Part shown: in pieces, positions 32,398-53,308 of the stretch
Position numbering within the stretch: the stretch's first letter is position 1
How the letters are laid out: each line of letters starts with the position of its first letter
Assembly (NCBI GenBank): GCA_948567375.1
Contig: OX419755.1
Coordinates: 8,685,001 to 8,749,000, forward strand
DNA from: Lunularia cruciata
Lineage: Eukaryota; Streptophyta; Marchantiopsida; Lunulariales; Lunulariaceae
DNA: 64,000 nt
Reading direction: 5' to 3'
Program-made: the position numbers and the translations under genes
The notes under the pieces: model-generated
Databases searched by the model: none
What the model was told of the DNA's origin: nothing
The model's input: only the letters and a program-made list of their open reading frames with translations

Positions 32398-32932
32398 TGT
32401 CGTGCGTATATACATCGCTACACAACATCCATCGCTGTCAACATCATACACTATAGAAGCACAACTCACACATAAGTCATACATAGACTCTAAAGTGCCA
32501 CAATAATCAGATTGCTTAACACTTTCAACTCAACTCAACTCAGATCAGTACTTGATCTGTCACTCTATAAATTGCCAACAATAGGGCACTAATTACAGTC
32601 AAGCCACACCCACTCAAGCATAAAGAATCCAGGTGACGCTCGCCGGCCTCTATCCACCATAGCCAAGAACTCGAAGGCTCAACATCAGAGAAGTGAGCTC
32701 TCTGGAGCTCACTTTGAAACTATACCTCCTTGGACTCGAGCTAGCACTGGAACCCTAACGGTCCTACTGATGGCACACTCGACAGTGCGAACGGTGCAAA
32801 GTGACGGTGGGCCCCACCGTGAAGTCAGTACCCCAAACACCAAATCAGACTATCGGAAAGTAGTCCTTGAGAAACTACTAGAATAACTCTAACACAAGGA
32901 CTCCAGATGGCAAAACCTCGTGCACTCTCAAG
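32398..32932 (-). repeat. 3' LTR of D (inner edge uncertain)
   Basis: 32494-32893 matches 52851-53251 closely (AATCAGATTG start, GAATAACTCTAAC end). The outer 95 bases (32398-32493) and the inner 40 bases do not match the other copy, so either the LTRs have been rearranged or only a core is conserved. No clear polypurine tract borders it. Confidence 0.6.
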
Positions 32933-33006
32933 ATAGTGCGGCCTGTAGAAACATCAAGTGTCGTCGGTGCTGTCTGCTGTAGATATACATAGTCGCTTGG
33001 ATGAAA

Positions 33007-33884
33007 TCAACGGATCGAGGGTCTATAACCTCCTCCTTGAATGGTAGCATAGCGTAAAGTATCTCTATGCTGAGCAATCGCCAAGTTCTCAAAGGCCATC
33101 GGCATGACTCTCCGAAAGATCTCTGCCCGCTGAGAACATGCACTCATCCATACATCGGGGTCATCCAAGTCCAAAACTACAGTAGCATCTCGACAAATGG
33201 CTGCAGGTAAATTTGGATCTCGTCCATAGAGTAGAAAGTATGGAGAGAAGGATGCTAAGGAGGCTTGCCGGCTGAACCGATACCCCATGGCCAACCAAGG
33301 TAACTGGAGATCCCAATCTCCCAAGTGGCCTCTCTGCAAACCATACTTTTGCAATCCTCTCTTCACCGTCTGAACCACTCTCTCTGCCAAGCCATCTGCC
33401 TTAGGGTGATCTCGGGATGTAGTACGATGATCAATCAAAGCCTTGTCACACAAGACCTGAAACTCCCCCAAGAACTCTATACCCTGATCAGTCAAAACCT
33501 CAGCTGGTGCATCAAAATGACTAAGAACTTGATCCAGGAACGAGTAAGCTGTCCCTTCACTAGACTTGTTAGGAAGTGCCACCAACTCAATCCATTTGGA
33601 GAAGTGCTCCACCATCACCAAAACATACCGATGATGTCTCACAGTCAGCGGTAAAGGTCCGGCAAAGTCCAAACTCCAATGGTAACCCAATCCCATGATA
33701 GGTAATGGGTGTAACTGTGGTGTAAGAGCATTGAATGATGCTCTAACACGGTCACAAACCACACATCTGGCAACAAACTGCTGCACCTCGGTCTGCATAC
33801 CGCACCACCAATAATGACTCTGAAGTAAGCTATATGTACGCTTTACTCCAAAATGTCCTAGCTCCTCATGAGCATGACGGACCA
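33007..33884 (-). pseudogene. D integrase, core and C-terminal part
   Basis: This stretch stays open for about 290 codons. The His/Cys finger (HAHEELGHFG, then CVVCDRV) is at the start. The catalytic triad is complete: Asp in WSLDFAGP, Asp in LTDQGIEF, Glu in GLAERVVQ. A core end follows (FLLYGRDPNLP). The A4 LTR cuts off the N-terminal lead-in at 33884, so the open frame now begins inside A4. The frame ends at 33007. This is the best-preserved part of D. Confidence 0.88.
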
Positions 33885-35777
33885 TGTGGTACCCACATTT
33901 TTCATTTTGGACAAGTTTAGAAGAAGAAATGCCTTGCTGAAACCAAATTGAAACCAAATGGAGAAGAAATGAGTGCAAACCTATGATTTGATCAGACCCG
34001 AGGAAGTCGACTTCAAGTAAGAGGAAGAAGGATTTGGACTGGATCCAACCCGAAGAAGCTTACTTCGTGTCAGAGAAGGGAAAAACTCGGATCAAACGTT
34101 AAGGAGGGCAAACCCGAAGGAGAAATAGAAGTTACAAGTCAGGATTTTTGCGGGGGCCATATCTCAATGCACACAAGTCCAAATCAAGCGTGATATATCT
34201 AGTTGGAAACGTCTCGTTCAGGGCTTTCCATTGCCACCAAAATCGCAAAGTTTAGAGGTCTGTAGAAGAAGTTACAAGCATTTGAAGTTTCTGGAGTAAG
34301 TGTACTTCGGGTCAAAGTGTCTAGGGTTTAGGGTGACTTCGGATTTAGTACTTCGTACTTCGGGTTTACATGACTTCGCCTCAAGATGAAGATGACTAAA
34401 TCAGAGGTAGCCGAACCTCGGAGTGCAGTGAAGGTGTTTTTGGGAGTTTTGTCAGAGGGATCAGAGGAAGTTAGAGTAGAGAAAGAAGATAGTTAGGATA
34501 CACATGACTTCAATTTCAGTTCTAATTGAAGATGGAACCTGAATTGAAGGAGAAGTAGCAGTAGTGAATAAACCCAAAGTGCAAGATCAGACTGTAAGTG
34601 TCTTCGGGTTAGTGACATGAGTGATTAGGAGAAAGTGGATTACAAATTGAAGGTGTAGATAGTATATTCATGGTTTCAATTACAATTCTTGATGATGACA
34701 CAATAGAATTAGTAAAGGAATTGATAGTAGTTAAACCCGAGGTAAGAGAGATAGGAGTGCAAGTGTCTTTGGATTTGACATTTGACACTTTAGAGAAGAA
34801 TGGGTCGGGAGATAGAGATTTAGAAGGCTTAACTATGATAGGAATTTCATATCAGGAAGGAGAAATGTTAGAATTAGTGGAGGAAGTAGGAGATGTGAAA
34901 CCCGAGGACAGAATAGTAGGAAGTAAGATTACTTCGGGTTCGGGTTTGAAAGCCGAGGAAGAAGTAGACATCAGATCGGATTAGTAACCAATTTGAGATT
35001 TGAAGGGGCAGATATGAAGAGGTGCATTGTCATTTCGGATCTGCAGGTTAGAACAGTTGATGTAGAAACGGTATAGTTGTTAGAACTATCGATTGCTTCA
35101 CTATTTAAAAGTGGCATTCGCAAGAAATTGTTGTTCAGATCTCATTATTTCTGAGAATAGATAAAGCGAAGTGCTGTGAAGCAGTGCTCGTTGCTTGAGC
35201 TTGATTCCGAGTATCAACTTTGCAATTGTGTTTGTGAATGTTTGGAGAAAGTCAAAGTGCAGTCAGAGTGCTTGTTGGATGTTGGATTCACAGCTTTGAT
35301 CTTCATTCTGTGTGTTTGATCTTGAGTGAAGTGCAATCGAAGCAATGCCTTGACAGATCTGAGAGGAATTGTAGTGTTGGTAGTATTCTGCATTTGTGAG
35401 TGTAGTGCAAAGTTGATGTGAAGCAATTTTGATCGAGGAAGTTGTGCCTTCAATGGAGGGGTAGAACACAATTTTGAAGCAAAGTCGTTTTGCAGTGAAG
35501 TGCCATTTTCGGGAGAGCCTGAATCATCACAAATCAAGATTGTTTGGAAATAATTGATGGAGTTGTGATTATGGAGTGTTAATTTGTGACAAGACTGCGA
35601 GTCAGTGCTTGTTACTCTCTTCTGGGTGTGGTTTCTACCTGAGAGACTAAAGAAGAACTCAAGAAGAACTGAAATTGTTACTTTGCTTTGTATTTGGACA
35701 TTTCTGACTCGTATCTCTACGGGAACGAACTTTACTTACCCGATTACCGCAAAAGTGATATTTTCCAGGTTGTCACA
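33885..35777 (+). repeat. Solo A LTR, short form (A4)
   Basis: Starts TGTGGTACCCACATTTTT and ends GGTTGTCACA, with the 5-bp duplication GACCA at 33880-33884 and 35778-35782. It is only 1.9 kb. Its last 1.1 kb matches the other A LTRs, including the C-terminal end of the LTR-encoded frame (34670-34984, ending EVDIRSD) and a TATTTAAA box near 35100. The N-terminal and coiled-coil coding parts are absent. It splits the D integrase. Confidence 0.92.
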
Positions 35778-35782
35778 GACCA

Positions 35783-36056
35783 ACTGTGGTCTTTGTGATG
35801 GAAGTGGTACTACTCGTACTCCACCATCCTCCCATACATGCAAAAGGTATCTACCCTCCAATCTGAACCGTCTAGCTCGCTGAAGAACATGGTCTCTCTC
35901 CTTGGCCCCAACTGTGCCACCCACAACACCAGTGCAAAGATAGTCCATCACTAAGACATCATCATGAATGTCTTGCTGAACTGTACCAATATCTTCACTC
36001 TTTGGATCTGTGACCTCAATAACTCCTCTTATATGCGCTGAGAGAGATACCACCAA
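35783..36056 (-). pseudogene. D integrase, N-terminal lead-in
   Basis: The minus-strand frame gives DDVLVMDYLCTGVVGG, then RARRFRLEGRYLLHVWEDGG, the segment that precedes the His/Cys finger in gypsy integrases, and runs into the A4 target site. A TAG near 36057 separates it from the RNase H frame. Confidence 0.75.
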
Positions 36057-36059
36057 AGT

Positions 36060-37560
36060 CTATGCAAATATACACAGAAAGGCCAATGCATGCCAACCTG
36101 GCACCATCTCCTCATCTATCTCACCATGCCAATGTGCTCCGGTCTGATCCTGCTCGCTGGGACATGGGTTTCTACTCAACCCATCTGCATCACGATTCAC
36201 CACTCCAGGTCTGTGAACAACCGTGAAATCATACTCCTGTAAAATCAGAGCCCATCGTGCAAGCTTCCCTGAAAGCTTGTCGGACTCCATCAACCACTTT
36301 AGTGGCTGATGATCAGTGATGAGGGTGAAGGGGTTACCAAATAGGTAACATCGGAAATGTGCTACTGCCCAAACTGCTGCCAAGCACTCTCCCTCATATG
36401 AACTATACTTTGCCTCCGCTGAATTGTTGGAGCGACTAACATAGGCCACCACAAACTCCTCCTCATCATCATGCTGGGTGAGCACCGCTCCAAGCCCCAA
36501 CATACTCCAATCAGTATGAACCTAAAATGGTCATCCCCTGATCGGTCTCCTCAAAATAGGAGTAGATGTCAACCTCTCCTTGAGCTCTACAAAAGCTCTC
36601 TCCTGCTCATCTCCCTAACACCACTCTTGTGTAAGCTTGGTCAGCTTCATCAAGGCCTTGGCAATGGCACTAAATCCTCTAACATAGCGGCGATAGAAGT
36701 TTGCCAACCCAAGGAATGCTCACACTCTGCTCACATCCGTAGGCCAAGGAATACGGGCAATAGCCTCCACCTTGGTCTACTGAACACCAAGTCCTCTGGG
36801 GTAGATAGTGTGACCCAAATACTCAACCTGCTCGTGGAAGAACCTACAGTTCCCAGGATGTAATTTGAGTCCATGAGATCTCAACCTCTCAAACACCTCC
36901 AACAACTATCTCTCATGCTCCTCCACAATAGTGCTATAGACCAAAATGTCATCAATATAGCACCGAGCAAAATCCAATCCAACTAGGATCCTATCCATGA
37001 CCCTCTAGAACTCAGCGGGAGCGTTCTTCAACCCAAATGGTAAGAAGCTCCACTGATATAACACATCCTTGCCGTGAGGATCAATAGCCCAAAATGTTGT
37101 CTTGGACTTATCCTCCTCCCTAATTGGCAACTGATGATATCCCGCTCGAAGATCCAAAGTACTGAAGACCTTTGCATGCCCAATCGCATCAAAAATCTCC
37201 TCCGGTGTAGGCATGGCATACCGATCAGCCCTGGTCTGTCGGTTGATAGGACGGTAATCTCCACACATTTGCCTATCTGTATAGTTGCCATGCATATCCT
37301 TCTTGGCTGGCATCAATGTCGCCGATGCATGCTCTCCATGTGAAATCTCCACCAAACCAGCCTCAAAAAGGTCACTACTCCGGCTCTGAATCAATGTCCT
37401 CTCCATCTCACTATATTGATAAGGAAGTCGGAAAATAGGTGTGTTGCTAGTCAGTTTGATCCGTATACCAGGTCCCTTTAGAGCACCCAAATCCTTCATA
37501 CTGAAGGCAAAACAACTCGTGTGACTCCTCAGGAACCTCCAAACCCTCCGTCTTTCCTCT
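36060..37560 (-). pseudogene. D reverse transcriptase and RNase H
   Basis: The reverse transcriptase is open at 37005-37499 (LFEAGLVEIS; FSTLDLRAGYHQLPI; FLPFGLKNAPAEF). A TAG follows and then the catalytic YIDDILV at about 36941-36961. The rest of the palm and connection (FLGLANFYRRYV) is broken by TAG and TGA codons. RNase H at 36060-36503 is open (YVSRSNNSAEAKYSSYEGE; TDHQPLKWLMESDKL; DADGLSRNP). Every stop read in this stretch is TAG or TGA. The YIDD box differs from the FIDD box of families A and B, so D belongs to another gypsy branch. Confidence 0.85.
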
Positions 37561-37640
37561 CTAGTAAGCTTGGGTCCAAGATCTGGCTCCCAAGTATCCT
37601 CTGTAACTATAGTAAGAGTGGAAGACGTACTGATTGGCTG

Positions 37641-37955
37641 CTACACTGGGCCCTTGGGAGCAACAATGTCATGCTCCCGACCACTAGAGGTCCCAACCTC
37701 TGTGTGAAAAACTCCCTCCACTCTGGCTGCAAGCTCCACACATCCTCTAGCTACATCCCATGTGGACCAAGGGTGTAATCCAAGTAGCCCACGCTCATCT
37801 GGATGGACTCCAAGTAGACCACTCTCCCTAGTAGCTACTGGATGTGTCCCAAGAATACCATGTCCACTCGGTCCATTGCCCCCAACATGTGCCTGAATCG
37901 TCTCGATAGGCACAGGGCTCACAAGTGTCCGAGTGGTGATGCCTATCAAGCGCAT
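37641..37955 (-). pseudogene. D linker between methyltransferase and reverse transcriptase
   Basis: About 105 open codons between the last methyltransferase motif and the reverse transcriptase. It contains a small degenerate repeat of the form G-L-L-G-x-H-P (GILGTHP, GLLGVHP, GLLGLHP). No domain is recognised. It is probably a spacer or protease-cleaved joint in the polyprotein. Confidence 0.5.
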
Positions 37956-37984
37956 CCTACCCTACTCTGCCAAGCCAAGGCTCA

Positions 37985-39107
37985 CAATCCAGGTCAAACA
38001 GTTTAGGTCCATAGCCTGACCTAACACCTGACGCCTAGATGCCTCTGACATTGCTGGAATAGCGGTAATACCGGTGCAAAAACCCATTGCCCGCTCTCTC
38101 TCATCAGCGTTGGGCTCCACCAACTACTATAACTGTGAGTCCCAAACAAGTCCAGGTCCTCCCTCTCGAAAAGCATGAGAACCTGGGAAACTCATGAGTG
38201 TGGGAAATGCAACTCTAGGCTGTGCAACTAGGTTCACCACTGCCATAGGTGACCTATCAGCCACTACCACTGTTTGAGACTAATGTCCAGCATCCAAGAT
38301 ATCCTCAACAAGAATGTGGTCTAGTTGCTGAATCCCATCATAACTACGTTGTAGAACCTCTCTGGGTAAGAAGTTCATCCACCAAAGATGAAGACGATGA
38401 GCCCGTGATCCCACTCTGGCTGCATCTAACAATATAGCAGGTCCCATCCAAGAATGGACCTGATGTGTACTCGCCACCACTCTAGTGCGAGAATCACCCA
38501 TCAATGGAACGTTCTCCAAAAGGTAAGCTGGAGAAACAGATTGATGAACCTGGAGATGTCGTAGTATCCGTAACATCTCCCAAAACACACCAGAACGAGG
38601 ATCCTGAAGACCCAAACCGCAGCCCGCACGTGTATGTCCCTGACATGGCCATCCAAAAATCACCAAGTGAATAGGCCCATGTCTCTCTAGGTCATGCGCC
38701 CCCAGTAAGGAAATATCTCCTGGTAAGGCCTTCTGGTAACCTTTGACTGTTGACATCGGTAATAACTTTGGATACTGATAAGCCAAGTGTGCCACATGAT
38801 GTAGAGAGACTCACCTAGCAGTCTCATCCCTCTCTACATACAAGTACCTCTATACTTGGATACCCGTTTGTAACACCGTAGCTAGTCCGGTGCTGATCCC
38901 ACAAAACAACTCCAATAGACATATCCCCTCTACTAGATACTGCCAAGCAATGAGTGTGGTATCTAGAGGTGTCAAAGCAATCGCCTCTAGAGGCTCATCC
39001 TCACACTCATCCCCTGATGGTACAAAGACTCCACTCCAAGCATGCTGCACCAACTGATCTACATGCTGCTGCAATGCTTCCTCTGAACTCCACAATGGAA
39101 CATCCAA
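37985..39107 (-). pseudogene. C5-cytosine DNA methyltransferase domain of element D
   Basis: This enzyme family moves a methyl group from S-adenosylmethionine to carbon 5 of cytosine in DNA. The motifs appear in the standard order: motif I LLELFCGISTG (near 38900), motif II RYLYVERD (near 38840), motif IV GWPCQGHTRAG with the catalytic Cys codon near 38644, motif VI LLENVP (near 38510), motif VIII SRAHRLHLWW (near 38390), and IX/X region ADERERAMGF, then RRQVLGQAMDL (about 38000-38110). I see no separate target-recognition insert of large size. It lies between protease and reverse transcriptase in the same sense, so it was part of the polyprotein. Five stops (TAG at 38850, TGA near 38830, TAG at 38280, paired TAG near 38125) make this copy inactive. 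Source lineage is unknown. Confidence 0.87.
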
Positions 39108-39152
39108 GGTGGATGGAACAATCCCACTCGTACTCCAAAGCCAAGTGATCTC

Positions 39153-40151
39153 CTATGGTATTGGAGTATCCTCTGCATGGGCGTTCCCCTCCAACAAGTC
39201 ACTAGGCCAAGTAACTGCACCGCTGAAAGCTAAAACTGATGCTGCCATGGTCCCGGATTGTAGTGAGCCAAGACTGCCACTACTAAAGCGTACTGGTAGG
39301 CGACATACCCATCCCTCACCAGACTGCCAACCAGATCTATAAGAGGTTGTCTCCTCCCAATAGTCAATGCTTAAACCCATAGAGTATAACACTGCTCCCC
39401 CAACTAGCACATCATATGACTCAGCTATCGTCGCAATAGCCTGAGCTCTCACCACCGAGCTATTAGTCAAATGACCAGGCTGAACCTGGACAACAAGCTC
39501 TCCACGTGTGATGTACTATATCGAACCACCACCAAGAGATGTCTGGATCTGAAATGGACACCTCTCCACATCGGTCTTCCGTAACTCCAGACCAACAACT
39601 GCAGCCTTCCCCAACATAAGGGGTTGCGCACCTGAGTCTAACAAGACTCTCTGTGTTGTATAGACCTTCCCTGAAGGTCCCACCAAACAAAAATTCCCAC
39701 TCTGGTTATCCAATAGGACAACACCAGGTGTAAACCACGCTCTCTCAAAGGCCGGTCTAGCTGGCAACTCCTCCAGTCTAGCTGCTGCTGCTTGCCATAA
39801 ACCACTGGTCGCTGAACGGATCTCATGCTCCTCAACCAAGTCAGCTCCACTACCAACCACCTCTGCTCTAGTAGGGTAGTCTGACCTGTCTCCCAACCTC
39901 TCCTCTCTGTGGGTCCAACTCCACTGATGCTCCTCTAGGCTCTGGAGCACGTACTGCACTCCTAGTCACTGCTGCAGATGCATCCACCTGTGCTGCTCCG
40001 CACATGAAGTCCAAAGCATCTCTATCACCAGCATATGAGGTGGAAGCCTCAGCACCCAAATCTGATCTCCTCTGAGCAATAGCCATACTAGCCAATCTCT
40101 GCTCCAACTACTCAATCCGAGTAGCCATAGTTGGGTCAGAAGTAAGGGCAG
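39153..40151 (-). pseudogene. D aspartic protease and gag-pol linker
   Basis: The protease active site reads RVLLDSGAQPLMLG (near 39630). The closing motif SYDVLVGGAVLY lies near 39410, followed by WQSGEGW. A TAG at 39516 splits the two lobes. The linker (LEQRLASMAIAQRRSDLGAE) joins the gag end across the chimeric insertion. Asp-Ser-Gly is canonical here, unlike families A and B. Confidence 0.8.
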
Positions 40152-40155
40152 GTAC

Positions 40156-41624
40156 TATGAGCCGGCCTATATGTCGGTACTTCAAATTCAATTGGTAGTA
40201 TGGGATGGAAGCCATATGTCAAGAAGTATGGAGTTTGTTTGGTTGTAATCTTTTTTGTTGTTTGATATGCCCACAACGTGGCTGACAATTTCGTATCCCA
40301 ATCAAAAGCATAATTCACAGTCACCTTATTCAAAATTTTGCAAAGAAACCCATTCGCCTTTTACATTAAGCCATTTGCTTTTGGGTTATAAAGAGTCATC
40401 TTCCAATGTTTAATCTGAATGTACTTGGTTAATGCCTCCATTACAGAGTTCAAAAAATGTGTCCCTCAGTCACTGACCAATTCCAGAGGACACCCATATC
40501 GGGAGATGATGCTTTGAAAGAAGAATTCTGCCACAGTTTTGGCATCACCTTTGCGAGTTGGTTCAGCTTTGACCATCTTGGTAGCATAGTCTGTAACACC
40601 CATTTGTGCATGTGTGTGGTATTGTGATATTTAGCTTGGTATTACAAGTACTTAAGAGATATTATTTATATAGAGATAAAGGATGGCTCTATATTAGTCA
40701 TGGTTAGCTAAAGTTAGTCATAGTTAAGATAGAGGGGACTTTACTTTAGAGGAAGTAGAAAAGATGAGCACCTCTATTTTGGGTTTTAATGTATTGACTT
40801 GGTATTATTCCTAGGTGTTTGGGTTTGAGGAAAGAGTTGAGAACTCTTGGGCCCGCAAGCCTTTTTGTTTTGGATTCTTCTTTAGTCCAAGGATAGCCTA
40901 TGTGAAGGAATCCTTGACTTAGTGGTTGGGTCTGTGAGCCGGCCTGTCTCTCACTCACGATGAACCTCTGATGGCTATTATGGTAGCGCACCATGGACTA
41001 AGAAGGCAAGGAACCCCAACTCCATCATACTCCTTCAAGGCTAACACTCCAAGACTCAAGACATTGCTCACTAGAGAACTCAATGAGAGAGAGATAGTTG
41101 CAAATGAAAAGATGATGAGTACCTCCTCACCCCTTGTTTATATACTTGTGAAATAGTTACGTACCAAAGTTACTAATTACCATAGTAACTCAAGTTACTA
41201 GACTAAAAGTCAAGTAAAGTCAAAAAGTAGAAAGGAATATCCATTCACATGGGCATATTCCTCTAAGCATGTGGTCTTATCTTGACCCAACCACTAAGTC
41301 AAGGATTCCTTCACATGGGCTATCCTTTGACTAAAGAAGAATCCAAAACAAAAAGGCTTGCGGGCCCAAGAGTTCTCAACTCTTTCCTCAAAGTCAAACA
41401 CCTAGGAATAATACCAAGTCAACACACTAAAATCCAAAATAGTGGTGCTCATCTTTTCTACTTCCTCTAAAGTAAGGTCCCATATATCTTAGCTATGACT
41501 AACTTTAGCTAACCATGACTAATATAGAACCATCCTTTATCTCTATATAAATAATATCTCTTAAGTACTTGTAATACCAAGCTAAATATCACAATACCAC
41601 ACACATGCACAAATGAGTGTTACA
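40156..41624 (-). mobile_element. Chimeric insertion: B LTR plus captured A1/B1 flank
   Basis: A 1.47-kb insertion in D with the 4-bp duplication GTAC at 40152-40155 and 41625-41628. The right part (40933-41624) is a full minus-strand B LTR. Left of it are 341 bp of a plus-strand B LTR (40592-40932), then about 425 bp of A integrase (40169-40591), then only 13 bases of B LTR terminus (TATGAGCCGGCCT). The order and sequence of 40166-41624 match 4342-5800 almost base for base, which is the solo LTR in B1 and its left flank. The only shared sequence at the join is CCT. It looks like a retrotransposed readthrough copy of that solo LTR. Confidence 0.85.
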
Positions 41625-41628
41625 GTAC

Positions 41629-42918
41629 TGCACCCCTACTAGGTGTAGATCCTCTACCACCACCTCTACCACCTCGTCCTCCATGAACTGGAGCTCCTCT
41701 ACTACTTGCCATAGCAGCCCTACCACTCCGTAACTCCGGGTATAGGTCAAAACACCGGTCACTAGTGTGACCAAATCTGTGGCAGTGCTCACACTGCCTC
41801 TGTGCTGGCTGTGATGCACCAGAGGTATCAGGTCCGCTGCCCTGAGTACACTCTCTCCTATGGTGAGGTCCACCACAAGTCCAACAAGCAACACCACCAC
41901 TCACTGGCTGCTACTGACCCGAAAATGAGGATAAGGGTCTAACTCCACTAGGCCCTCCACTCGCTCCATAGGATCTGGGCTGTCCACCCTGTCCTTGAAA
42001 ACCAACTGGGCATGGTGCACTCTGCTGCACTCTAGAAGAAGTCACAACCGTGGATGAGGTCTCTCTACCAAATCCAGATGTCACCACTCTCTCCTCCACC
42101 ATATTGAGCTCAATACGCTCAGCCAAACCAAAGACTACTGCCAAAGTGGGCAAAGTAGCTTGCAATAACGTAGCATCACGAACTCTACGTCGCAACTCCT
42201 TGTCCAGTATCCCATACCAAAACTGGACTGCCTGGGCCTCAGTAACTCCCTGAGTGAAACTGATCAGCCGCCTCATGCGAGTGTATGCCTCGCGTAGGCT
42301 CTCTCCAGTCTTCCGCTGGAACTCCTGCAAGCTCCTCAGCTTATCAATCCGCACTCCTTGGTAGTTCTGCCTCAAACACAGGAAGAACTCCACCATGGGG
42401 TTAAACCCCGGTACTACACCACCTCATGCAGCGGTGCCTCCACTCGTAGTAGCACTATCTCCGGCTAGTGCACCTCCACTAGCTCCACCAACACGACTCG
42501 AGCTAGAACTCATGGGTACAGCCGATCTACTCCTGGCCACCAAGCTTGAAGTGATAGAGACATAATATGGAGACCAATACTGTCTCCATAACTCGATCTC
42601 CTCCAAATGAACTCTCTTGAACTCATGGTAGTCATCCATCGACTGACCCTCCAGATGCTGAAACAACCCCTTCCATGCCATGAAGGGTGTGAACAAAGTC
42701 GGGTTCCGCATCTGCTGTAGATCACACCAACAATCAAACTCCTGGATGAAGTCATCCAACTCAATGGTACCCACTGTACCAGAGTAACGCCTAGGACCTT
42801 TAGAGGCCCCATAAATCTCGTCCATGTCCCACAACAATGGTACGAACACACCAAGTGCACTCTCAACTAAATCAGCTCTTGTGTCGAACTCCAACTCAGA
42901 GTCAATCTCCTCTTGCAC
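41629..42918 (-). pseudogene. D gag
   Basis: The N-terminal 164 codons (42424-42918; TIELDDFIQEFDCWC; TPFMAWKGLFQHLEG; WRQYW) and the second 161 codons (41911-42396; FFLCLRQNYQG; LREAYTRMRRLISF; RRVRDATLLQATLP) form the gag core. A basic Gly/Arg-rich tail with two zinc knuckles follows (41629-41904; CWTCGGPHHRREC and CEHCHRFGHTSDRC, both CCHC complete). The three parts are in one frame, broken by a TGA near 42425 and a TAG near 41908. The start at 42918 is the first Met; the true start may lie further up. Confidence 0.83.
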
Positions 42919-43094
42919 TGGGACCTAAGATACAGGCTAATACCGAGCACCACTCCGAGTAAACCCACTATGTACTGCAGGGCTTACTCCTTTGGAATCT
43001 CCAAAGAACTCCATTGTGACCATGTAACTGCAACCACAAACCCGAACCACCAACTGCAACCGCAAGTCGCAACCGTAAGTGCCCCACCAAGTGC
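42919..43094 (-). other. D leader, gag-proximal piece
   Basis: Sequence between gag and the B2 insertion, part of the D leader that continues at 51571. No frame is supported. It ends with GTGC, the B2 target duplication. Confidence 0.55.
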
Positions 43095-43784
43095 TGTGAG
43101 CCGGCTTGTCTCTCACTCACGATGAACCTCTGATGGCTATTATGGTAGCGCACCATGGACTAAGAAGGCAAGGAACCCCAACTCCATCATACTCCTCCAA
43201 GGCTAACACTCCAAGACTCAAGACATTGCTCACTAGAGAACTCAATGAGAGAGAGATAGTTGCAAATGAAAAGATGATGAGTACCTCCTCACCCCTTGTT
43301 TATATACTTGTGAAATAGTTACGTACCAAAGTTACTAATTACCGTAGTAACTCAAGTTACTACACTAAAAGTCAAGTAAAGTCAAAAAGTAGAAAGGAAT
43401 ATCCATTCACATGGGCATATTCCTCTAAGCATGTGGTCTTATCTTGACCCAACCACTAAGTCAAGGATTCCTTCACATGGGCTATCCTTGGAATAAAGAA
43501 GAATCCAAAAGAAAAAGGTTTGCGGGCCCAAGAGTTCTCAACTCTTTCTTCAAAGCCAAACACCTAGGAATAATGCCAAGTCAACACACTAAAATCCAAA
43601 ATAGTGGTGCTCATCTTTTCTACTTCCTCTAAAGTAAGGTCCACTCTATCTTAGCTATGACTAACTTTAGCTAACCATGACTAATATAGAACCATCCTTT
43701 ATCTCTATAAATAATATCTCTTAAGTACTTGTAATACCAAGCTAAATATCACAATACCACACACATGCACAAATGGGTGTTACA
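43095..43784 (-). repeat. Outer 3' LTR of B2
   Basis: A full 690-bp B LTR with GTGC on both sides (43091-43094 and 43785-43788). Taken alone it would pass as a solo LTR. Shared differences with 50881-51570 tie it to B2. Confidence 0.9.
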
Positions 43785-44416
43785 GTGCCAACACCACCAC
43801 GTGCCAACACCAACTAGACACCACCCACTAATGTAACTCTAACCGAGATAACTACACTAGGGGAAAGGCAACTTGTAACCTGCCATCATAACACGCACTC
43901 TCACGGTCTGCAGGTCATCACTTCCTGCCTCACCAGAGGGAAACAAAGGTAGTCTGACTGGTCATCACTCCAGCCTCACCACCAAGAGCACACCAGAGCA
44001 CCAACGCTCAAAAGTCAGGGCACCTCACACAAACATGGTGCACAAATAGGAAGTAGAGAATGGAGGGGATCCAATCACAAGAAATCTAAACAAAAACCCT
44101 CCATCTCATAACACAACACGGGACTGACTCTGCCACCATTAGGCATTTGACATAAGAGAGTGTTTGTATCTAAGTCCTAAGCTACCAAGATCACCAAGAA
44201 TGGGATCAAACTGCCTCTCCTAGCCAAAGCTACATGTGTATAGATAACAGTGGTGCAATCACTAGGACAACAAGTGAGGGTGGACCAGTTGGCTAGGGCA
44301 GTAGTCTAGGAACAAGAGATCTAGGGGTCTAACCCTGTTGCGCACAATCTAGCAAGAAAGGCAGATTTTGCCAACCAATGACCAAGATCTACTCTAAACT
44401 AGCTAGCCTCACGCCA
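43785..44416. repeat. 632-bp duplicate of D leader sequence inside B2
   Basis: Near-identical to 51571-52202, starting GTGCCAACACCACCACG and ending GCCTCACGCCA. It is D sequence, not B sequence, and is trapped between a B LTR and the B interior. It holds no gene. A few differences between the copies (for example CAACTTG versus CAACCTG) show the duplication is not brand new. Confidence 0.9.
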
Positions 44417-44472
44417 TTGTTACATTTACCCCCGGACTAAGTTTTCACTTTGTCCTCAAAGTGAAGGTCTCT

Positions 44473-45531
44473 CTACCTTCTATGGTACATCTTCAACTTA
44501 TCATGGTTAATCCTATCAAAGTGTCTTCCTCCCAACTCCTTGAGATCATAGGTGTAATTGCCCCACACCTTCTCTACTATGAAAGGTCCAAAGTACTTAG
44601 GCAAAAACTTCTTTTGCACTCTCTTGAATCGAATGGAATCAAACAACATTACCCAATCACCTTCTTTGAAAGGCTCCACCTTCTTCTTGCCTTGCCTCTT
44701 GTCATAGCTCTCCTTTTGTTTCCTTTGGGCTTGCTCCACTCGAACCATAGCAACTGCTCTTGCCTCTTCCAACTCCATGAGTTGATCCTTCCTTGACTTC
44801 TCTGCATCACTTCCTTGTGCTTTCTTCAATCTCCTATGAATGCTTTGGAAGGTAGGAAGATCAAAGTGAATAGGTAAGGTAGACTCAATACCATACACCA
44901 ATTGGAATGGAGAATATCCAGTGGAAGTCTTCATGGTTGTCCTATACTCCCACAAAACTGCATGAATCCTCTTGTCCCAATGATGTTTAGCCCCCTCCAT
45001 TTCTGCATCTTTGGCCAACATCATGCACAAGGTCTGATTGGTTCTCTCTGCCAAGCCATTGGAATTTGGCTTATAGGATGTAGTTACTCTATGTGTGATA
45101 GAGAAATGTCGTAGCATGGCTGTAGTAATGCTTCCTGTAAACTCTCCTCCTCTATCAGAAACCAACTCCAAAGGGCATCCAAACCTAGTGATAATACGTT
45201 CAAAAAGAAATCTACCCACTTCATCTTCATTCTTGTCCCTCAATGGTCTAGCCTCAACCCACTTGGTAAGGTAATCAGTAACTACCACAATGTACCGATT
45301 GTTCCTTGGGGTTCTATTGAGAGGTCCTACAAAATCAATTCCCCACTTCTCAAAAGGTCCTAGCAATGGAATTGATCTAAGTGGTGGAGTGGATGTAGAC
45401 TTTCTAGCAAAAGCTTGACAAACATGACAAGTTTTGCAATAATCAAGACAATCCTTGAAAATCCCTCTCCAATGGTAACCTGCATCTAGAATCTTGAAAG
45501 CAGTCACCTTTCCTACAAAGTGTCCCCACAT
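44473..45531 (-). CDS. B2 integrase
   Basis: An open frame of 352 codons. The Cys pair of the zinc finger (CKTCHVC, about residues 35-41) is in frame; the preceding His lies across a frameshift near 45525. The catalytic triad is complete: Asp in WGIDFVGP (about 65-72), Asp in LVSDRGGEF, Glu in NGLAERTNQ. The C-terminal part (KKFLPKYFGPF, KELGGRHFDRI) ends HRR plus stop, as in B1 and B3. The ATG at 45531 is probably not a true start; in B1 this sequence continues from RNase H in one frame. Apart from the shift the domain looks usable. Confidence 0.87.
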   Translation of the reverse strand: MWGHFVGKVTAFKILDAGYHWRGIFKDCLDYCKTCHVCQAFARKSTSTPPLRSIPLLGPFEKWGIDFVGPLNRTPRNNRYIVVVTDYLTKWVEARPLRDKNEDEVGRFLFERIITRFGCPLELVSDRGGEFTGSITTAMLRHFSITHRVTTSYKPNSNGLAERTNQTLCMMLAKDAEMEGAKHHWDKRIHAVLWEYRTTMKTSTGYSPFQLVYGIESTLPIHFDLPTFQSIHRRLKKAQGSDAEKSRKDQLMELEEARAVAMVRVEQAQRKQKESYDKRQGKKKVEPFKEGDWVMLFDSIRFKRVQKKFLPKYFGPFIVEKVWGNYTYDLKELGGRHFDRINHDKLKMYHRR

Positions 45532-47450
45532 ACTAAACCTTCATGAAACTCCTTTATGAGTAGGATAGACTCTTCCTTACCCACTGCTCTTTGAAGTAGA
45601 CCATCTGCTCCTTGGTGAAAAAGAATATCCTCCACCATTGTGTAAGGTCTAGATCTTGCTGCAAGGGCCTTCCTCTCCCTAGCATGCATCCCTTTTGGAT
45701 AGTTACCTCTTGTCACAAAATCCACAATCTCCTTGTAGTCCATTGGAATCTCTTGAGTGACTGAGATTGTCATGAGCTCCTCATCCGGGAAGGAATCATC
45801 TACTGGGTCATCTCCATCATGATCATAGGCTCTAGATAACAAATCAGCATTTGCATGTTTCTTTCCTGGCCTATCTTCAATGGTGTAGTCATACTCAGAC
45901 AAGAGTATCATCCACCTTGCTAGTCTCCCTTCAACATTAGGCTTGTTGAAGATGTACTTCAAAGCCTTGTGATCCATGACAATGGTGGCTTTCCCTCCAA
46001 TCAAGTAGTGTCTAAACTTCTTGAGACCAAAGATCACTGCCAACCCTTCTCTCTCCGTGACAGAGTAGTTCTTCTCTGCTAAAACCATCTGCCTACTAGC
46101 ATAAGCTATTGGATGATCATGCCCATCTTGGTCTAATTGACTAAGAGTGCATCCTATAGCTACATTAGAAGCATCAGTGTAGAGGATGAAAGGTTTACTC
46201 CAATCAGGTTTAGCAAGAATTGGAGCTAGAACAAGGGATTGCTTGAGCTCCTCAAAAGCTTTGAGAGCCTCCTTGTCTTCCAAAATCACCATGTAATCTA
46301 CACCCTTCTTCATGTAGATGTTCAATGCATAAGCCTTGTTGGAAAATGAGAAGATGAACCTCCTATAGTACCCAACCATCCCCAAGAATTGGCGTAACTT
46401 TGTCAAGCTTGAAGGGAATGGAAGGTCTGAGATTTTCCTCACCTTCTCAGGATCAAGTGCTATTCCATCCTTGGAGATGATATGCCCCAAAAGTAGACCT
46501 TCTTCACATCCAAAAATGCACTTTTCTGGGTTGAGTGATGCATTTGCCTCATCCAAGCATTGCAAGACTTTGATTAGGTGCTCAAAGTGCTCCTCCTTGC
46601 TCCCATAGACACAAAAGTCATCAATGAAATCTCTCACAAATTTCCCAATGAAAGGTTCAAATACCTTGTTCATGAACCGTTGGAATGTGGCTGGAGCATT
46701 GCAAAGCCCAAAAGGCATGACCTTAAAAGCGTAAGTTCCCCAAGGTGTGGTGAATGTGGTGAGTTGTTGATGCTCTGGTGCAATCTTGATTTGGTTATAT
46801 CCACTATAACCATCTCCAAAACTGTACCTCTCATGACCTGCAACCTCCTCCAAGATCCCATTAATGAATGGCAATGGGTAGTAGTCCTTCTTGGTAACAA
46901 CATTGAGCTTCTTGTAATCCACACATACCCGAAGCTTGCCATTCTTTTTCTTCACAATGACAATTGGAGACACCCATTCTGAATTCTCCACCTCAAAGAT
47001 AAATCCAGCCTCCTTGAGCTTATCAATCTCCTCCTTCACAACCAAAGATATTGGTGGGCTAATGCGACGTTGCTTTTGGCGGATTGGTTTTGCATGTGAC
47101 TCCACCTCTATCTTGTGCTCCTCCAAGGAGACTTCCTTCAAATCCTTGTAACTAAAAGCAAACACATGGATGAACTTGCGGAAAATCTCCTCAAATCTCA
47201 CCTTCTCCTCCTTGGTAACATTTGGGCCATACTTGAGGGTAGATAACCTTCTCTCTACCTCCTCAAGTGTCAATGGTGATTTATTTGGGTTTAGGTGCAA
47301 AATCCTCTGGCTTAGGTGCAAAATCCATAGCACACAAAGGATACACATCTGAATCAGATTCAGATTCATCCTCCTCCGTGGAAGTCTCCTCTTCCATGCT
47401 TGTGTCCACACCTGAAGCTCCTTCTTCAAAATCTGATTCCCAATAATCAA
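45513..47450 (-). CDS. B2 reverse transcriptase and RNase H
   Basis: A 645-codon frame. The first 50 or so codons overlap gag-protease in another frame and are probably not native; true pol sequence starts near NKSPLTLEEVERRLS. Reverse transcriptase: VKKKNGKLRVCVDYKKLN (about 166-183), GDGYSGYNQI, PFGLCNAPATFQRF, catalytic FIDDFCV (275-281). RNase H: LYTDASNVAIGC (about 423-434), a Glu in VTEREGLAVIF, MDHKALKY and NADLLSRA. It ends in frame-shifted residues just before the integrase. In B3 the protease and pol are in a single frame, so B2 has one small shift near 47290. Confidence 0.9.
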   Translation of the reverse strand: MIIGNQILKKELQVWTQAWKRRLPRRRMNLNLIQMCILCVLWILHLSQRILHLNPNKSPLTLEEVERRLSTLKYGPNVTKEEKVRFEEIFRKFIHVFAFSYKDLKEVSLEEHKIEVESHAKPIRQKQRRISPPISLVVKEEIDKLKEAGFIFEVENSEWVSPIVIVKKKNGKLRVCVDYKKLNVVTKKDYYPLPFINGILEEVAGHERYSFGDGYSGYNQIKIAPEHQQLTTFTTPWGTYAFKVMPFGLCNAPATFQRFMNKVFEPFIGKFVRDFIDDFCVYGSKEEHFEHLIKVLQCLDEANASLNPEKCIFGCEEGLLLGHIISKDGIALDPEKVRKISDLPFPSSLTKLRQFLGMVGYYRRFIFSFSNKAYALNIYMKKGVDYMVILEDKEALKAFEELKQSLVLAPILAKPDWSKPFILYTDASNVAIGCTLSQLDQDGHDHPIAYASRQMVLAEKNYSVTEREGLAVIFGLKKFRHYLIGGKATIVMDHKALKYIFNKPNVEGRLARWMILLSEYDYTIEDRPGKKHANADLLSRAYDHDGDDPVDDSFPDEELMTISVTQEIPMDYKEIVDFVTRGNYPKGMHARERKALAARSRPYTMVEDILFHQGADGLLQRAVGKEESILLIKEFHEGLVCGDTL

Positions 47451-49302
47451 AAGATGGTGTATCTGAATGTGAATTGTTGGTGGTGTTAGTCACAAGAACT
47501 GTGACTCTATGGTTTGATGGCCCAATCCTCAAGTACCCTTTGTGCCATCGATCAGTTGTGCGTGCTGCTCTCAACCATGGCCTCCCAAGAAGTAAGTCAT
47601 AGCTTGAATCCTTCAAGACTTGGAAAGTCATGAGATTTTGAACTCCCATAACTGAAACTACCACCTTATCCATCACCCCTACTGGTCGAACTTGTTGCTT
47701 GTTTGCCATGCTCACCACAAATGTTGAAGGTCTTGAGGGTATCATACCCAACTTCTCCATCAACCTTTCTGACATGGCATTCACTGCTGATCCTCCATCA
47801 ACCAATGCATCCTTGATGTTGTGACCATTCACTCTCACATCAATCTTGGAGGCATATTCACAAGCTTCCCATGGTGCTGGCTTGGCATCCACCACCCCCA
47901 TTGATACTGGAACTTTTGCCTTCTTCTTCTTCTTGCTCCTTGTAGAACTCAAACCACCTCTAAGCTCCTTTCTCAAGGTAGGGTTCAAAGCAATTAATTG
48001 GCACACTGTGATGTTAGCCTTGTGACTACCAACATCCTCCAACACATTGTAGTTCCATTGTTGCTTTGAGATCAAGAAGTCCTCCATCCTCAACTTCTTC
48101 CTTGGAGTCTTTGTTGTTGATGGTGTTGAGGTGCGAGTGCTCCTAGTTGACATAGGAGTATCCTTGCTTGAAGTAAATCCTTGAGAAGAGTGAACATCCT
48201 CTGCAAAACGAGCTCTCTTCTTCTCTTGTGCCAAAAGCTCCAAATTAAGACCCTTGGAGTTTGAGCACTCTCCCTTCTCATACTTGCTCTCAACCACATC
48301 TATGGATGCTATCCCCTTACCTTTGTTGGGATTAGGAGCCACTTGGGTTTCACTACCTCCCTCTTTCCCTCTATTGGCTCCCTCATAACACCTTCCTCCA
48401 TGGTAAGTGGAATTTGGGCAATTCCTTTGGATATGGCCTCTTCCTCCACAACCAAAACAATTTCTATCATTGAAATTTTTGGCTGGTTGGCCTCCTCTAT
48501 ATGGATAGTTTCCATAACTCCTAGGCCCTCTCCCTACATTCTGATCCACCTCTCTCTTCTCCCATAGTTGCACCACATGGATCTTGAGATCCGCAAGTTG
48601 TTCTGTGATGGTTTGGAGTGGATCTTTTGGTGGAGGTGCAAGAACTGGAGCAACTACTACTTGTGGTGCAACCCTTGTCACCAAAGTATCAGAAGTTCCA
48701 CCAAACTTGTAGCCTTGAGGAGGATGCACAACCTCCTTCACCACCAAATCACTCTCATCCCCTTCCAAACTCTCCTCCATACGAATTGCGATCTTGATAG
48801 CTTCAACCTTGGAAGAAGGTTTCTCATATCTCACCTTGCTTCTAATTTGTGGTCTCAATCCTCCCATAAAATTCTTGGTGAGCATGGCCCCTATGCCAAT
48901 CATTGTAGTCTCCACATCATCCCCACCCTTCCTCAACACTATGCGAAATCTGGACTCCAACTTTTCCACTCTTTCCACATAGACCCTCACTTTCTCTCCA
49001 TCTCCTTGCTTGAGAAATGTAACCTCACTCATCAATCTCTCATAACTCTCATCAGGAAGAAAGTTCTCAATGAGTGCTGAAGTCAAAGTCTCCCAAGACT
49101 CCTCTTCCCCCTCTCTCCTCTCTCTCTTTTGGTATTCTGACTCATACCATGTAAGTGCTGCATCCTCAAAGAAAGCTGGTAATAATGAGGCCCACTCATT
49201 CTTCCTCCTCTCATTGTTTCCTATGCAAGCTCTCTTGAAGTCTCTCACAAAGGCCTCCACATCTTCTCCATCCTTGCCAAAGAAAACCGGAAGTTTCCCC
49301 AT
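47281..49302 (-). CDS. B2 gag-protease polyprotein
   Basis: An intact 673-codon frame starting at the same ATG as B1 gag. Gag core about residues 1-180 (FFGKDGEDVEAF; WYESEY; FLPDESYERL). Zinc knuckle CFGCGGRGHIQRNC at 282-295. Ser/Thr-rich and basic linker to about 410. Conserved segment YNVLEDVGSHKANIT. Retropepsin domain with ALVDGGSAVNAM (499-510) and DLLLGRPWL (569-577). An acidic tail of Glu/Ser/Asp leads to the pol junction. It would form particles, package RNA and process the polyprotein. Confidence 0.92.
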   Translation of the reverse strand: MGKLPVFFGKDGEDVEAFVRDFKRACIGNNERRKNEWASLLPAFFEDAALTWYESEYQKRERREGEEESWETLTSALIENFLPDESYERLMSEVTFLKQGDGEKVRVYVERVEKLESRFRIVLRKGGDDVETTMIGIGAMLTKNFMGGLRPQIRSKVRYEKPSSKVEAIKIAIRMEESLEGDESDLVVKEVVHPPQGYKFGGTSDTLVTRVAPQVVVAPVLAPPPKDPLQTITEQLADLKIHVVQLWEKREVDQNVGRGPRSYGNYPYRGGQPAKNFNDRNCFGCGGRGHIQRNCPNSTYHGGRCYEGANRGKEGGSETQVAPNPNKGKGIASIDVVESKYEKGECSNSKGLNLELLAQEKKRARFAEDVHSSQGFTSSKDTPMSTRSTRTSTPSTTKTPRKKLRMEDFLISKQQWNYNVLEDVGSHKANITVCQLIALNPTLRKELRGGLSSTRSKKKKKAKVPVSMGVVDAKPAPWEACEYASKIDVRVNGHNIKDALVDGGSAVNAMSERLMEKLGMIPSRPSTFVVSMANKQQVRPVGVMDKVVVSVMGVQNLMTFQVLKDSSYDLLLGRPWLRAARTTDRWHKGYLRIGPSNHRVTVLVTNTTNNSHSDTPSFDYWESDFEEGASGVDTSMEEETSTEEDESESDSDVYPLCAMDFAPKPEDFAPKPK

Positions 49303-49538
49303 CTTAACCCCTCACTATCTTTCTTTTCTCTCAAAATTTTTTTTTCTCTTTTCTTTTCTCTCACTCTATTACTAATAGAGTATATACATGACTAACACCA
49401 TCTAAGAATAATCCACTCTAGGGAACACAAAAGGTTCAGGTTGCTCCAAGATTTCTATAGCAACATCAAATCCTAGAGTGCATATTAATCTAACTCTCAT
49501 GGATAGTTTATCCATAAGTTGAAAGATTATCTCCATCA

Positions 49539-50036
49539 CTAATCTTGAGAACTAGCTGATGAAGGTGGTAGTATTTCTGTAGCTGTACTAAGACTCTTTC
49601 CAAGATCCTTCACCAAAGTTTCCAAAAGTTCTTTTACTCCACTACACTCATGTCCTTTTGGAAGTCCTTCAACTCCACAAACCTCACACAACTCCTTGGT
49701 CTTAGATCTTCTCCCTCCCAATCTTGGTGAAGAAGGTCCAACATGCAAACCCAAGTCAAGTAAGCCTCTCCTTTCCCTCAATCTCTTGCTCTCAAAGCTC
49801 AATGGACATGAACTTGCCTTATGTCCCTTCTCTCCACATAGAAAGCACTTAGACTCACTCTTTCCTCCAAGTGGTGTAGGTTTTTGGATCCTCTCAACAC
49901 TCTCTTCAAATTCTATTGTAAACTCTCTTTTCCTCAAATCCACCCCTACAATCATCTCAAACCCTTGGAGAACCTTGCATAATCTCAATTTCCACTCTTG
50001 ATGACCCTCCATGTTCCCGAAGATGAATCTAAACAC
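49539..50036 (-). CDS. Extra frame upstream of gag in B2, zinc-knuckle protein
   Basis: An open frame of 165 codons between the leader and gag, in element sense. A CCHC knuckle (CFLCGEKGHKASSC, about residues 73-86) and a second Cys/His cluster (CEVCGVEGLPKGHEC, about 117-131) suggest nucleic-acid binding. The N-terminal 60 residues (LRLCKVLQGFEMIVGVDLRK) match nothing I know. Extra frames before gag occur in Ogre-type Tat elements, but I cannot say this one is related. B1 has lost the whole stretch; B3 is not visible here. Start chosen at the first Met; the Met eight residues later (MEGHQEW) is an alternative. Confidence 0.6.
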   Translation of the reverse strand: MFRFIFGNMEGHQEWKLRLCKVLQGFEMIVGVDLRKREFTIEFEESVERIQKPTPLGGKSESKCFLCGEKGHKASSCPLSFESKRLRERRGLLDLGLHVGPSSPRLGGRRSKTKELCEVCGVEGLPKGHECSGVKELLETLVKDLGKSLSTATEILPPSSASSQD

Positions 50037-50857
50037 TCAAACATGCTTTTTGTTGATCTTAAACTTCTCATGCATGAGATCTCCACTCTGCAGAATTTAC
50101 CCTTCGTCACAATGTCACTCAAATCTCCCAACCAATATGTCACAGTCCTTTGAAATTTTTCACACTTGATAACAACTCCAGGGCGTCCCTCCCTGCAAAA
50201 TTTCAGATCTTTTCATCGAGCCATTTGGCCTAAACACCTTTCTATTCAGCATCCATATTTCAGATTTGGTCTGAAAACCACCCCCCTCACTTCAAAAACT
50301 CATTTCTCCCTGCGCAAGAACGATCTCTCTCTACGCAAGAACGATCTCTCTCTAATTTTTGTGGCAGCAGGTAGGATACAATGCACTGAATTTTCTTGGA
50401 AAGTTTCAAGACAATTCACTGAAAATTGAAGAAATGGCGGACTCTGTACAATTTTCCAGAGAGCATGCAGTTGCGGGAGCACTTTACCCTATCAACTTTC
50501 AAAAATTCTAGCCCAGTGCGCATAGAAGCTCTCACAATAATTTCAAGTGTGCTAACTGAAAGATAACCCAAGCTATCATGTGTAGAAATCTCAAGTCCAG
50601 ATCTCAAACTTGAGATTTTGCCCAAAATCACCTTAATCCCCAAAATCTGCAATCCACCTCACACAATCTCTCCAATTCCTCTCATGTGTACAAGATGTAC
50701 AAAATCACCTCAAAGACATCATTATGAACTACAAGGTATACAAATGGATCTTGGTTCTCTAACATAAGTTCAGCCCTCTCCTCTCCAAGTGAGCTCTCAT
50801 AGCCTCCTTCTACCTAATGTAGAATTGGACGCGGAACATTATCTTACCTTCTAGAGA
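50037..50857 (-). other. Untranslated leader of B2
   Basis: About 820 bp from primer-binding site to the extra frame, matching the B1 leader (6179-6940). Small open frames on both strands are not conserved in B1. No gene is supported. It includes a short doubled segment near 50305-50350 (GCAAGAACGATCTCTCTC twice) that B1 has once. Confidence 0.65.
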
Positions 50858-50876
50858 GGTCCCGACAACAGAACCA
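50858..50876 (-). promoter_or_regulatory. Primer-binding site of B2
   Basis: The minus strand reads TGGTTCTGTTGTCGGGACC, two changes from the B1 site, four bases inside the 5' LTR. Confidence 0.7.
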
Positions 50877-50880
50877 AAAA

Positions 50881-52850: not shown

Positions 52851-53304
52851 GATGTAATCAGATTGTTTAACACTTTCAACTCAACTCAACTCAGATCAGT
52901 ACTTGATCTGTCACTCTATAAACTACCAACAACTGGGCACTGATTACAGTCAAGCCACACCCACTCAAGCATAGAGAATCCAGGTGATGCTCGCCAGCCT
53001 CTGTCCACCATAGCCAAGAACTCGTAGCCTCAACATCAGAGAAGTGAGCTCTCTGGAGCTCACTTCGAAACTATACTCCCTTGGACTTGAGCTAGCACTG
53101 GAACCCTAACGGTCCCGCTGACGGCACACTCGACGGTGCGAATGGTGCAAAGTGACGGTGGGCTCCACCGTGAAGTTAGTACCTTGAACACCAAATCAGA
53201 CTGTCGGAAAGTAGTCCCTAAGAAACTACTAGAATAACTCTAACTGTAATCACTGGAACTCCAGTGTCCAAGCAGCTAGATGCGGAACTACAAATGGCGT
53301 GACA
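52851..53304 (-). repeat. 5' LTR of D (inner edge uncertain)
   Basis: 52851-53251 matches 32494-32893. The outer 53 bases end GGCGTGACA at 53304, inverted-complementary to the TGTC start at 32398, and are followed by CACT. The outer bases are not matched in the other copy. Confidence 0.6.
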
Positions 53305-53308
53305 CACT

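Follow-up and report, generated by a model that had tools for sequence, protein, structure and literature searches.

A cytosine C5-methyltransferase domain of the DNMT3 class is, with near certainty, a standing part of an old Gypsy retrotransposon family, in which it has been kept by purifying selection and which is abundant in a bryophyte-like genome. One copy of this family, here called element D, lies in the window, i.e. in the whole stretch of 64,000 nucleotides of DNA that was analysed.

The methyltransferase domain in the window

An earlier note on this DNA had placed a C5-methyltransferase at 37985-39107 on the minus strand, between a protease and a reverse transcriptase (RT) read in the same sense. 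The profile search against the C5-methyltransferase family that had been asked for beforehand bears this out: the stretch 38280-38810(-), which is free of stops, hits PF00145 (DNA_methylase) with an E-value of 3.6e-8, above the Pfam cut-off. The coordinates were right to within about 130 bases; the whole domain aligns without gaps over 38975-37962, at 90% identity, with that of the open-frame family copy L032. Motifs I, IV, VI, VIII, IX and X (Table 1) follow one another in the canonical order and not in the rearranged order of DRM-type enzymes, and one common frame runs from the DSG of the protease (39638) through the methyltransferase to the YIDD of the RT (36959). A chance run of motifs is ruled out by the Pfam and PDB statistics and by the hundreds of copies.

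The window copy is dead, since its methyltransferase domain is interrupted by six in-frame stops and the frame over 39965-36060 by 17, among them the conserved UAG described below. It has also decayed beyond its stops, because its motif I (LFCGIS) carries a Cys where 31 of the 32 copies counted (the window copy being one of them) have a Gly, and its motif VIII (AHRLH) a His where 23 of these 32 have an Arg. The catalytic Cys, the Glu and the first Arg of motif VIII are kept in 32/32 copies; the second Arg is lost from nine, the window copy included, in a sample ordered by similarity to the window copy, itself without this residue.

Table 1. Features of element D and of its methyltransferase domain in the window.
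Feature	Position	Strand	Details
Full extent of element D, an old copy interrupted by other, nested sequence	32398..53304	-	TG...CA ends; A1 is followed by body pieces, then a remnant of A2, then B2
AGTG target duplication	53305-53308 and 32394-32397		
A1, left terminal repeat	52855..53304	-	about 450 bp; starts TGTCACGCC; 93% to A repeat of L033
gag pieces	41911..42924	-	two stop-free stretches
Aspartic protease piece	39516..39965	-	DSG starts at 39638; assigned by frame and motif
DNMT3-class C5-methyltransferase domain	37962..38975	-	338 codons; 6 in-frame stops in window copy
Motif I, ELFCGIS	38912-38892	-	
Motif IV, WPCQGH	38651-38634	-	
Motif VI, LLENVP	38522-38505	-	
Motif VIII, AHRLHL	38402-38385	-	
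Motif IX/X, DERERAMGF	38105-38079	-	
Motif IX/X, LGQAMDL	38024-38004	-	
Conserved UAG, then CAG CCA	37641..37643	-	leaky type; end of Gag-PR-MTase frame
RT and RNase H	36060..37640	-	methyltransferase frame, several stops; RVT_1 2.3e-9, RT_RNaseH 3.3e-34
Integrase piece, zinc-binding and DDE core	33007..33890	-	Integrase_H2C2 4.2e-15, rve 1e-12
A2, internal copy of left repeat	32504..32893	-	first 60 bases lost along with B1; K2P 0.080 to A1
B2, right terminal repeat	32398..32504	-	107 bp; ends ACGACA; 98% to B of L033

Element D in its surroundings

Element D extends beyond the methyltransferase region noted earlier and occupies 32398-53304(-), with the AGTG duplication on both sides. Its gag pieces and its protease piece have no Pfam match; the corresponding gag ORF of copy L031 matches Retrotrans_gag at a sub-threshold E-value of 0.052, and the protease of L141, a relative from another organism, matches Asp_protease_2 at 7.8e-4, slightly below its cut-off. 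The PHD finger of other copies is deleted in the window copy, whose homology to the body of L033 ends at 32888. Another Gypsy element in the window is devoid of a methyltransferase, and a methyltransferase query of 176 aa finds a single convincing place in the window.

A 1.05-kb repeat is present in the window in five copies (34733-35777, 140-1187, 17847-18894, 26039-27059 and 31345-32360), of which the first lies within element D, where it separates RNase H from integrase, and the other four are 78-84% alike to it. The 1.3-kb stretches 43095-44416 and 50881-52202 flank the nested Gypsy element, are 98.5% identical and each repeat a piece of element D; this looks like duplication or recombination at the nested LTRs.

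Abundance of the family and selection on the methyltransferase

The methyltransferase is a trait of the family and not a one-off insert. When the 566-Mb genome was searched with it, all of the 150 matches that were scored proved to be at least 90% identical (the 10,285 first-look candidates from which they came are a loose candidate count and not a copy number), a 16-base junction at the 3' end of the element occurs exactly 560 times versus 0 for the reversed control, and named relatives are found in other species. The genome search proposed with the earlier note has thus shown that the domain is not confined to the window copy, and open frames in family copies reach 1,431 aa. These genome-wide copies and the relatives rule out that a piece of a host gene landed in a single copy.

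Only nine of 33 copies are free of in-frame stops across the 2,667 nt that precede the conserved UAG. The K2P distance between the paired A repeats is 0.012-0.026 in four copies picked for their long frames and 0.080 in the window copy; the insertions are left undated because methylated C decays fast.

L141 is 52% identical to the family in the methyltransferase, 66% in RT-RNase H and 33% in gag-PR, and the four-fold sites differ at 71-74% (74% in the methyltransferase), i.e. they are saturated. Hence, the methyltransferase has been kept by selection, and more strictly so than gag, because it has retained 52% identity despite this saturation. Within the family, the N/S values for transitions are mixed, perhaps through recurrent C-to-T changes: 0.91 for singletons, 1.68 for changes shared by 2-3 copies among 50 and 0.51 for those found in more copies, with stops counted as N and three of 53 copies dropped for their broken alignment. 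These values were not relied on as proof of selection.

Class of the enzyme

Judged by its sequence, the element methyltransferase is a DNMT3-class enzyme, closer to DNMT3 than to DRM, DNMT2 or bacterial enzymes. A profile of 11 element methyltransferases, when run against solved structures, matched DNMT3A best (6.1e-25; 91.1 bits), while 4onj, which we take to be tobacco DRM (1.4e-11), DRM2 (3.6e-10), HhaI (2.8e-7) and DNMT2-type chains (1.4e-6; 30.7 bits) were matched more weakly, and no DNMT1- or CMT-labelled chain was present among the 59 structure matches. The host exons, labelled as DNMT3-, DRM- or CMT-like by us from their motifs, were compared with the element domain as well: the DNMT3-like L198 matched at an E-value of 1.7e-6 and the DNMT3-like L201 only at 0.005, and the DRM-like L199 and L212 and the CMT-like L200 gave no match at 0.01. 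An origin from DRM, CMT/MET1 or DNMT2 is not favoured by this ranking of structures and by the host-exon matches. In a small tree with just five cellular rows, two of them less than half filled, a split with a support of 99/100 separates 15 element methyltransferases from host DNMT3, host DRM and DNMT3A. The predicted structure of P0085, a relative from Calypogeia, is confident (pLDDT 88, pTM 0.87).

Relatives and the history of the capture

The named relatives among the 53 matches listed from a first protein search stem from Marchantia polymorpha, Sphagnum fallax and Closterium NIES-53; among the 120 of 187 listed there are further ones from Calypogeia fissa, Riccia sorocarpa, M. paleacea, Sphagnum troendelagicum, Sphagnum tenellum and Closterium NIES-54, and an entry labelled Chrzof1, presumably the chlorophyte Chromochloris zofingiensis. 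In the portion of the methyltransferase that they match, the proteins from Marchantia, Riccia, Calypogeia and Sphagnum are 49-74% identical to it, and some of them have RT/RNase H matches. The database names of the liverwort and moss relatives, among those listed, are hypothetical, unnamed, uncharacterized, CCHC-type, reverse transcriptase and DNA (cytosine-5-)-methyltransferase, and we found no paper in which the relatives from these four genera are described as retrotransposon DNMTs. That the element sits in a land-plant genome, as had been surmised earlier, is supported in so far as the genome is land-plant-like by these relatives, by its DNMT3-, DRM- and CMT-like host exons and by a plastid contig. 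The plastid matK match (L060, G000:C74:26931-27842) contains one TGA and one TAA and is adjoined by chlB-like and psbA-like sequence (by eye).

A search of genome contigs yielded 37 loci, of which L141 is the only close full-length relative; the others are short or less than 40% identical, save two short ones that reach 43% and 49%. L141 (CADCWO010000201.1, 1-9285) has 127-bp overlapping ends and is found in the GTDB record of a cyanobacterial MAG, and it is evidently a eukaryotic Gypsy-DNMT3 contig that contaminates this MAG. In IMG/VR, none of the eight stretches matched by the query P0001 was confirmed, and with a second query none was more than 45% identical among the best 80 of 400 confirmed.

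The methyltransferase precedes the RT in the bryophyte, Closterium and L141 elements and follows RNase H in a metagenomic clade, whose order is RT-RNaseH-MTase-integrase-PHD in one long frame (in P0048, RT at 174-643, methyltransferase at 791-1131 and PHD at 1622). Trees of the RT and of the methyltransferase (25 and 21 overlapping rows, all except one outgroup chosen for carrying a methyltransferase) have the same deep split, an agreement that would fit one old capture with later relocation. A serious though less probable alternative to one old capture and relocation in the polyprotein is that Gypsy lineages captured DNMT3 several times independently; the two domain orders speak for this, as do the separate events across lineages that are inferred in PMC5890265, but the agreement of the two trees and the grouping of the 15 element methyltransferases apart from the cellular enzymes, five rows only, argue against it. 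A far more divergent pair of element methyltransferases, P0074 and P0147, is 30-31% identical to L032, with the methyltransferase of P0074 located before the RT; this pair possibly represents a separate lineage or capture.

A conserved leaky-type stop codon

In 32 of 33 copies, among them that of the window, UAG CAR YYA closes the Gag-PR-MTase frame, with CAG CCA (31 copies) or CAA CCA (one copy) after the UAG; in the 33rd copy, L018, no counterpart of the conserved UAG was found. The commonest other in-frame stop among those listed is present in 5/33 copies. UAG CAR YYA is the readthrough context of tobamoviruses. The RT continues in the same frame after the UAG in L032 and L141, whereas further stops or shifts are found in other copies, and L141 has UAG CAA TCA at the corresponding place, in agreement with the same context. 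By eye, and at the protein level only, the ends of the Marchantia proteins P0023, P0024 and P0029 and of the metagenomic P0025 fall at the homologous position.

The enzyme had been described as embedded in the polyprotein. It does stand in frame within a Gypsy element, but it is not simply embedded in Pol, because it is joined to Gag-protease and parted from the RT by the conserved leaky-type UAG. We infer from this arrangement that the methyltransferase would be made at Gag dose and the RT and integrase through readthrough. The clade as a whole does not depend on a Gag-level dose, because the metagenomic relatives hold the methyltransferase after RNase H in one uninterrupted frame.

PHD finger and split terminal repeats

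The family has the order RT-RNaseH-integrase with an rve core, as is typical of Ty3/Gypsy elements. A PHD finger closes the integrase ORF of L032 (PF00628, 3.3e-9) and that of L141 (4.3e-10), and in these two elements it stands at the place where chromoviruses have a chromodomain, which was not found. A PHD-like pattern is present in 16 of 75 related proteins, many of the 75 being fragments without integrase. The closest solved PHD fingers are those of CHD4, KMT2C/D, PHF12, KDM5 and PHF21A, several of which read unmodified H3.

All four full copies have A alone (about 450 bp) at the 5' end and B (107 bp)-GC-A-B at the 3' end; the same LTR at both ends, a Ty3/Gypsy trait, was found in none of the four. 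The layout of copies with intact ends is A1 - gag-PR-MTase - UAG CAR YYA - RT-RNaseH-integrase-PHD - G-rich tract - B1 - GC - A2 - B2, with the G-rich tract immediately before B1 and with outer ends TG...CA. Target duplications of 4 bp flank 12/15 copies examined (12/13 with both ends found), namely the four full copies, seven of ten further copies and the window copy (AGTG); of the three exceptions among the ten, two are without a findable end and one has both ends but no duplication. In L033, a 13-nt stretch at the A1/body boundary, starting from the last base of A1, is complementary at 13/13 positions to part of A, 177 nt apart. L141 shares the junction ACGACAGCTGTCACG, has a G-rich tract before B, and contains self-complementary arms of 19 nt that are 89% complementary and 157 nt apart.

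Self-priming Gypsy elements of the Tf1/Sushi type carry, where their 5' repeat ends, a sequence complementary to an internal part of that repeat. The complementary stretch at the end of A1 resembles this, and self-priming of reverse transcription, putative in element D, is probable. The earlier assignment to a plant gypsy retrotransposon stands as far as the Gypsy RT-RNaseH-integrase is concerned, but the element is not a plain Gypsy, having split repeats, a PHD finger and probable self-priming.

Ngaro/DIRS elements are laid out as A1-body-B1-A2-B2, encode a tyrosine recombinase and make no target duplication. The family of element D shares their split direct repeats, indeed the very A1...B1-A2-B2 layout of Ngaro, and differs in its rve integrase and its 4-bp target duplications. 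The split repeats might thus stem from a DIRS/Ngaro-like replication, with template switching in the particle and no circle cut by an integrase, and the Klebsormidium nitens element is described with DIRS-type repeats in PMC5890265 (Fig. 4 legend); given the DDE integrase, the duplications counted above and a Pfam scan of ORFs in which a tyrosine recombinase was not among the matches, we regard this as unlikely.

Methylation footprint and proposed mechanism

C-to-T changes in 50 domain copies affect 4.8% of the cytosine cells at CG, 3.8% at CHG and 0.6% at CHH, with other changes in 0.5% of cells; pairwise comparison of 49 copies gives 4.1%, 3.8% and 1.0%, respectively, and 0.3% transversions. 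This concentration of decay at CG and CHG implies germ-line methylation of the copies in these two contexts. As a control, seven LTRs that belong to another element in the window gave 10% at CG, 6% at CHG, 3.4% at CHH and 1.9% transversions. Since these show the same CG>CHG>CHH ordering, the methylation cannot be traced to the element's own enzyme, and the mutation spectra do not show element-specific methylation, the control LTRs being alike (and older, with few CG/CHG sites). The roles suggested in the earlier note, hiding as silenced chromatin or resisting restriction-like defences, are hypothetical.

We propose that most translation would halt at the UAG, with the methyltransferase made at Gag level and the RT and integrase by readthrough only, and that the methyltransferase would be carried with Gag into the particle. 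Reverse transcription would prime itself from the 13-nt A stretch complementary to the A1/body boundary, and the plus strand would start at the G-rich tract, which would result in a cDNA with B-GC-A at each end. These ends would join to form a circle, in which the integrase would cut one palindromic ACGACA-GC-TGTCACG site; on this simplest reading, ordinary reverse transcription between the two primer sites and one cut at the palindromic junction would yield the integrated form, A-body-B-GC-A-B, exactly. The methyltransferase would methylate the linear or circular cDNA prior to insertion, so that a new copy would arrive methylated, and the PHD finger would steer insertion via the H3 tail. The element might gain a shielded DNA intermediate, or a host-like methylated insertion with less harm to the host.

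Methylation of its own cDNA by the element is, in our view, the likeliest role of the enzyme. We give the steps as a set (readthrough, packaging, self-priming, circle, cDNA methylation, PHD targeting), which are deduced from sequence, an even chance, and a standing DNMT3 in a Gypsy family together with this mechanism, the best explanation overall, slightly better than that. The combination of a DNMT3 at Gag dose via a leaky stop with methylation of the element's own circular cDNA, DDE insertion at the palindromic junction and PHD guidance is put forward only tentatively. If it is true, a retroelement would write its own silencing mark before landing and replicate through integrating circles.

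The methyltransferase might instead tag new copies for silencing by the host, keeping the load tolerable, with selection acting via host survival. The excess of C-to-T changes at CG and CHG over CHH implies methylated copies, and a slowed rate of retrotransposition is put forward as an idea in the discussion of PMC5890265; yet the control LTRs of another element have the same ordering and the family stands at hundreds of copies, and we consider such self-restraint doubtful. An action on element RNA or on the tRNA/primer, equally permitted by Gag-level co-production, is improbable: Gag-linked enzymes would meet genomic RNA first, and RNA methylation is raised for the LINE class in the discussion of PMC5890265, but the domain is nearest to DNMT3A, with the RNA enzyme DNMT2 far weaker (see above), and SymbioDIRS DNMT3 domains methylate CG in DNA in the experiments of that paper considered below.

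The preferred reading, methylation of the cDNA, suggests that the element may mark its own new DNA with the tag that plants use for silencing such elements. If the enzyme is active, there would be hundreds of mobile sources of de novo methyltransferase beyond the host DNMT3, DRM and CMT. Why an element carries its own silencer would then be testable in bryophytes, with relatives in Marchantia polymorpha, a model with genetics, and the leaky stop, the split ends and the PHD finger make one separate bench-testable prediction apiece.

Comparison with known systems

The closest known counterpart is KnitGypsy-Dnmt3 of K. nitens, presented in 2018 in the Fig. 4 legend of PMC5890265 as DIRS-like repeats with Gypsy domains. 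In the parts of that paper considered here, it resembles the family of element D in its DNMT3-class domain within a Gypsy polyprotein, its DIRS-like repeats and its purifying selection; the family of element D differs in its bryophyte-like land-plant host, its hundreds of copies, the placing of the methyltransferase, together with Gag, before a leaky-type UAG and the PHD finger on the integrase. Neither 'PHD' nor 'Marchantia' occurs in the main text of PMC5890265, and no Klebsormidium name is found among the 53 matches listed or among the 120 of 187 listed. In the yeast experiments reported there, both tested SymbioDIRS-Dnmt3 domains from Symbiodinium methylated CG, whereas KnitGypsy-Dnmt3 was inactive, a result that its authors call inconclusive. 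SymbioDIRS-Dnmt3 likewise carries a DNMT3 in a retrotransposon, albeit one of the DIRS type, while element D is a Gypsy with a DDE integrase and target duplications.

PMC5890265 was the one paper on 5mC enzymes in streptophyte retrotransposons that came up in the open-access literature; it is cited in PMC12344493. The ParB-methyltransferase genes of algal DNA transposons are proposed, in the passages concerned of PMC12477816, to modify their own element; they are of the N4-cytosine or N6-adenine type and reside in DNA transposons, whereas the enzyme of element D is of the 5mC type and resides in a retrotransposon. PMC6453930, PMC9516144 and PMC10952607 deal with bryophyte DNMT3 or methylation, with element copies not mentioned in the passages concerned. 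No report of a land-plant family of this kind was found in the open-access literature, a scope outside which preprints and most subscription journals lie. While the Gypsy-DNMT3 kind of element is already known from PMC5890265, as far as the parts considered here go, a Gypsy-DNMT3 family in a bryophyte-like genome, with a leaky stop and a PHD finger, is new within the literature covered.
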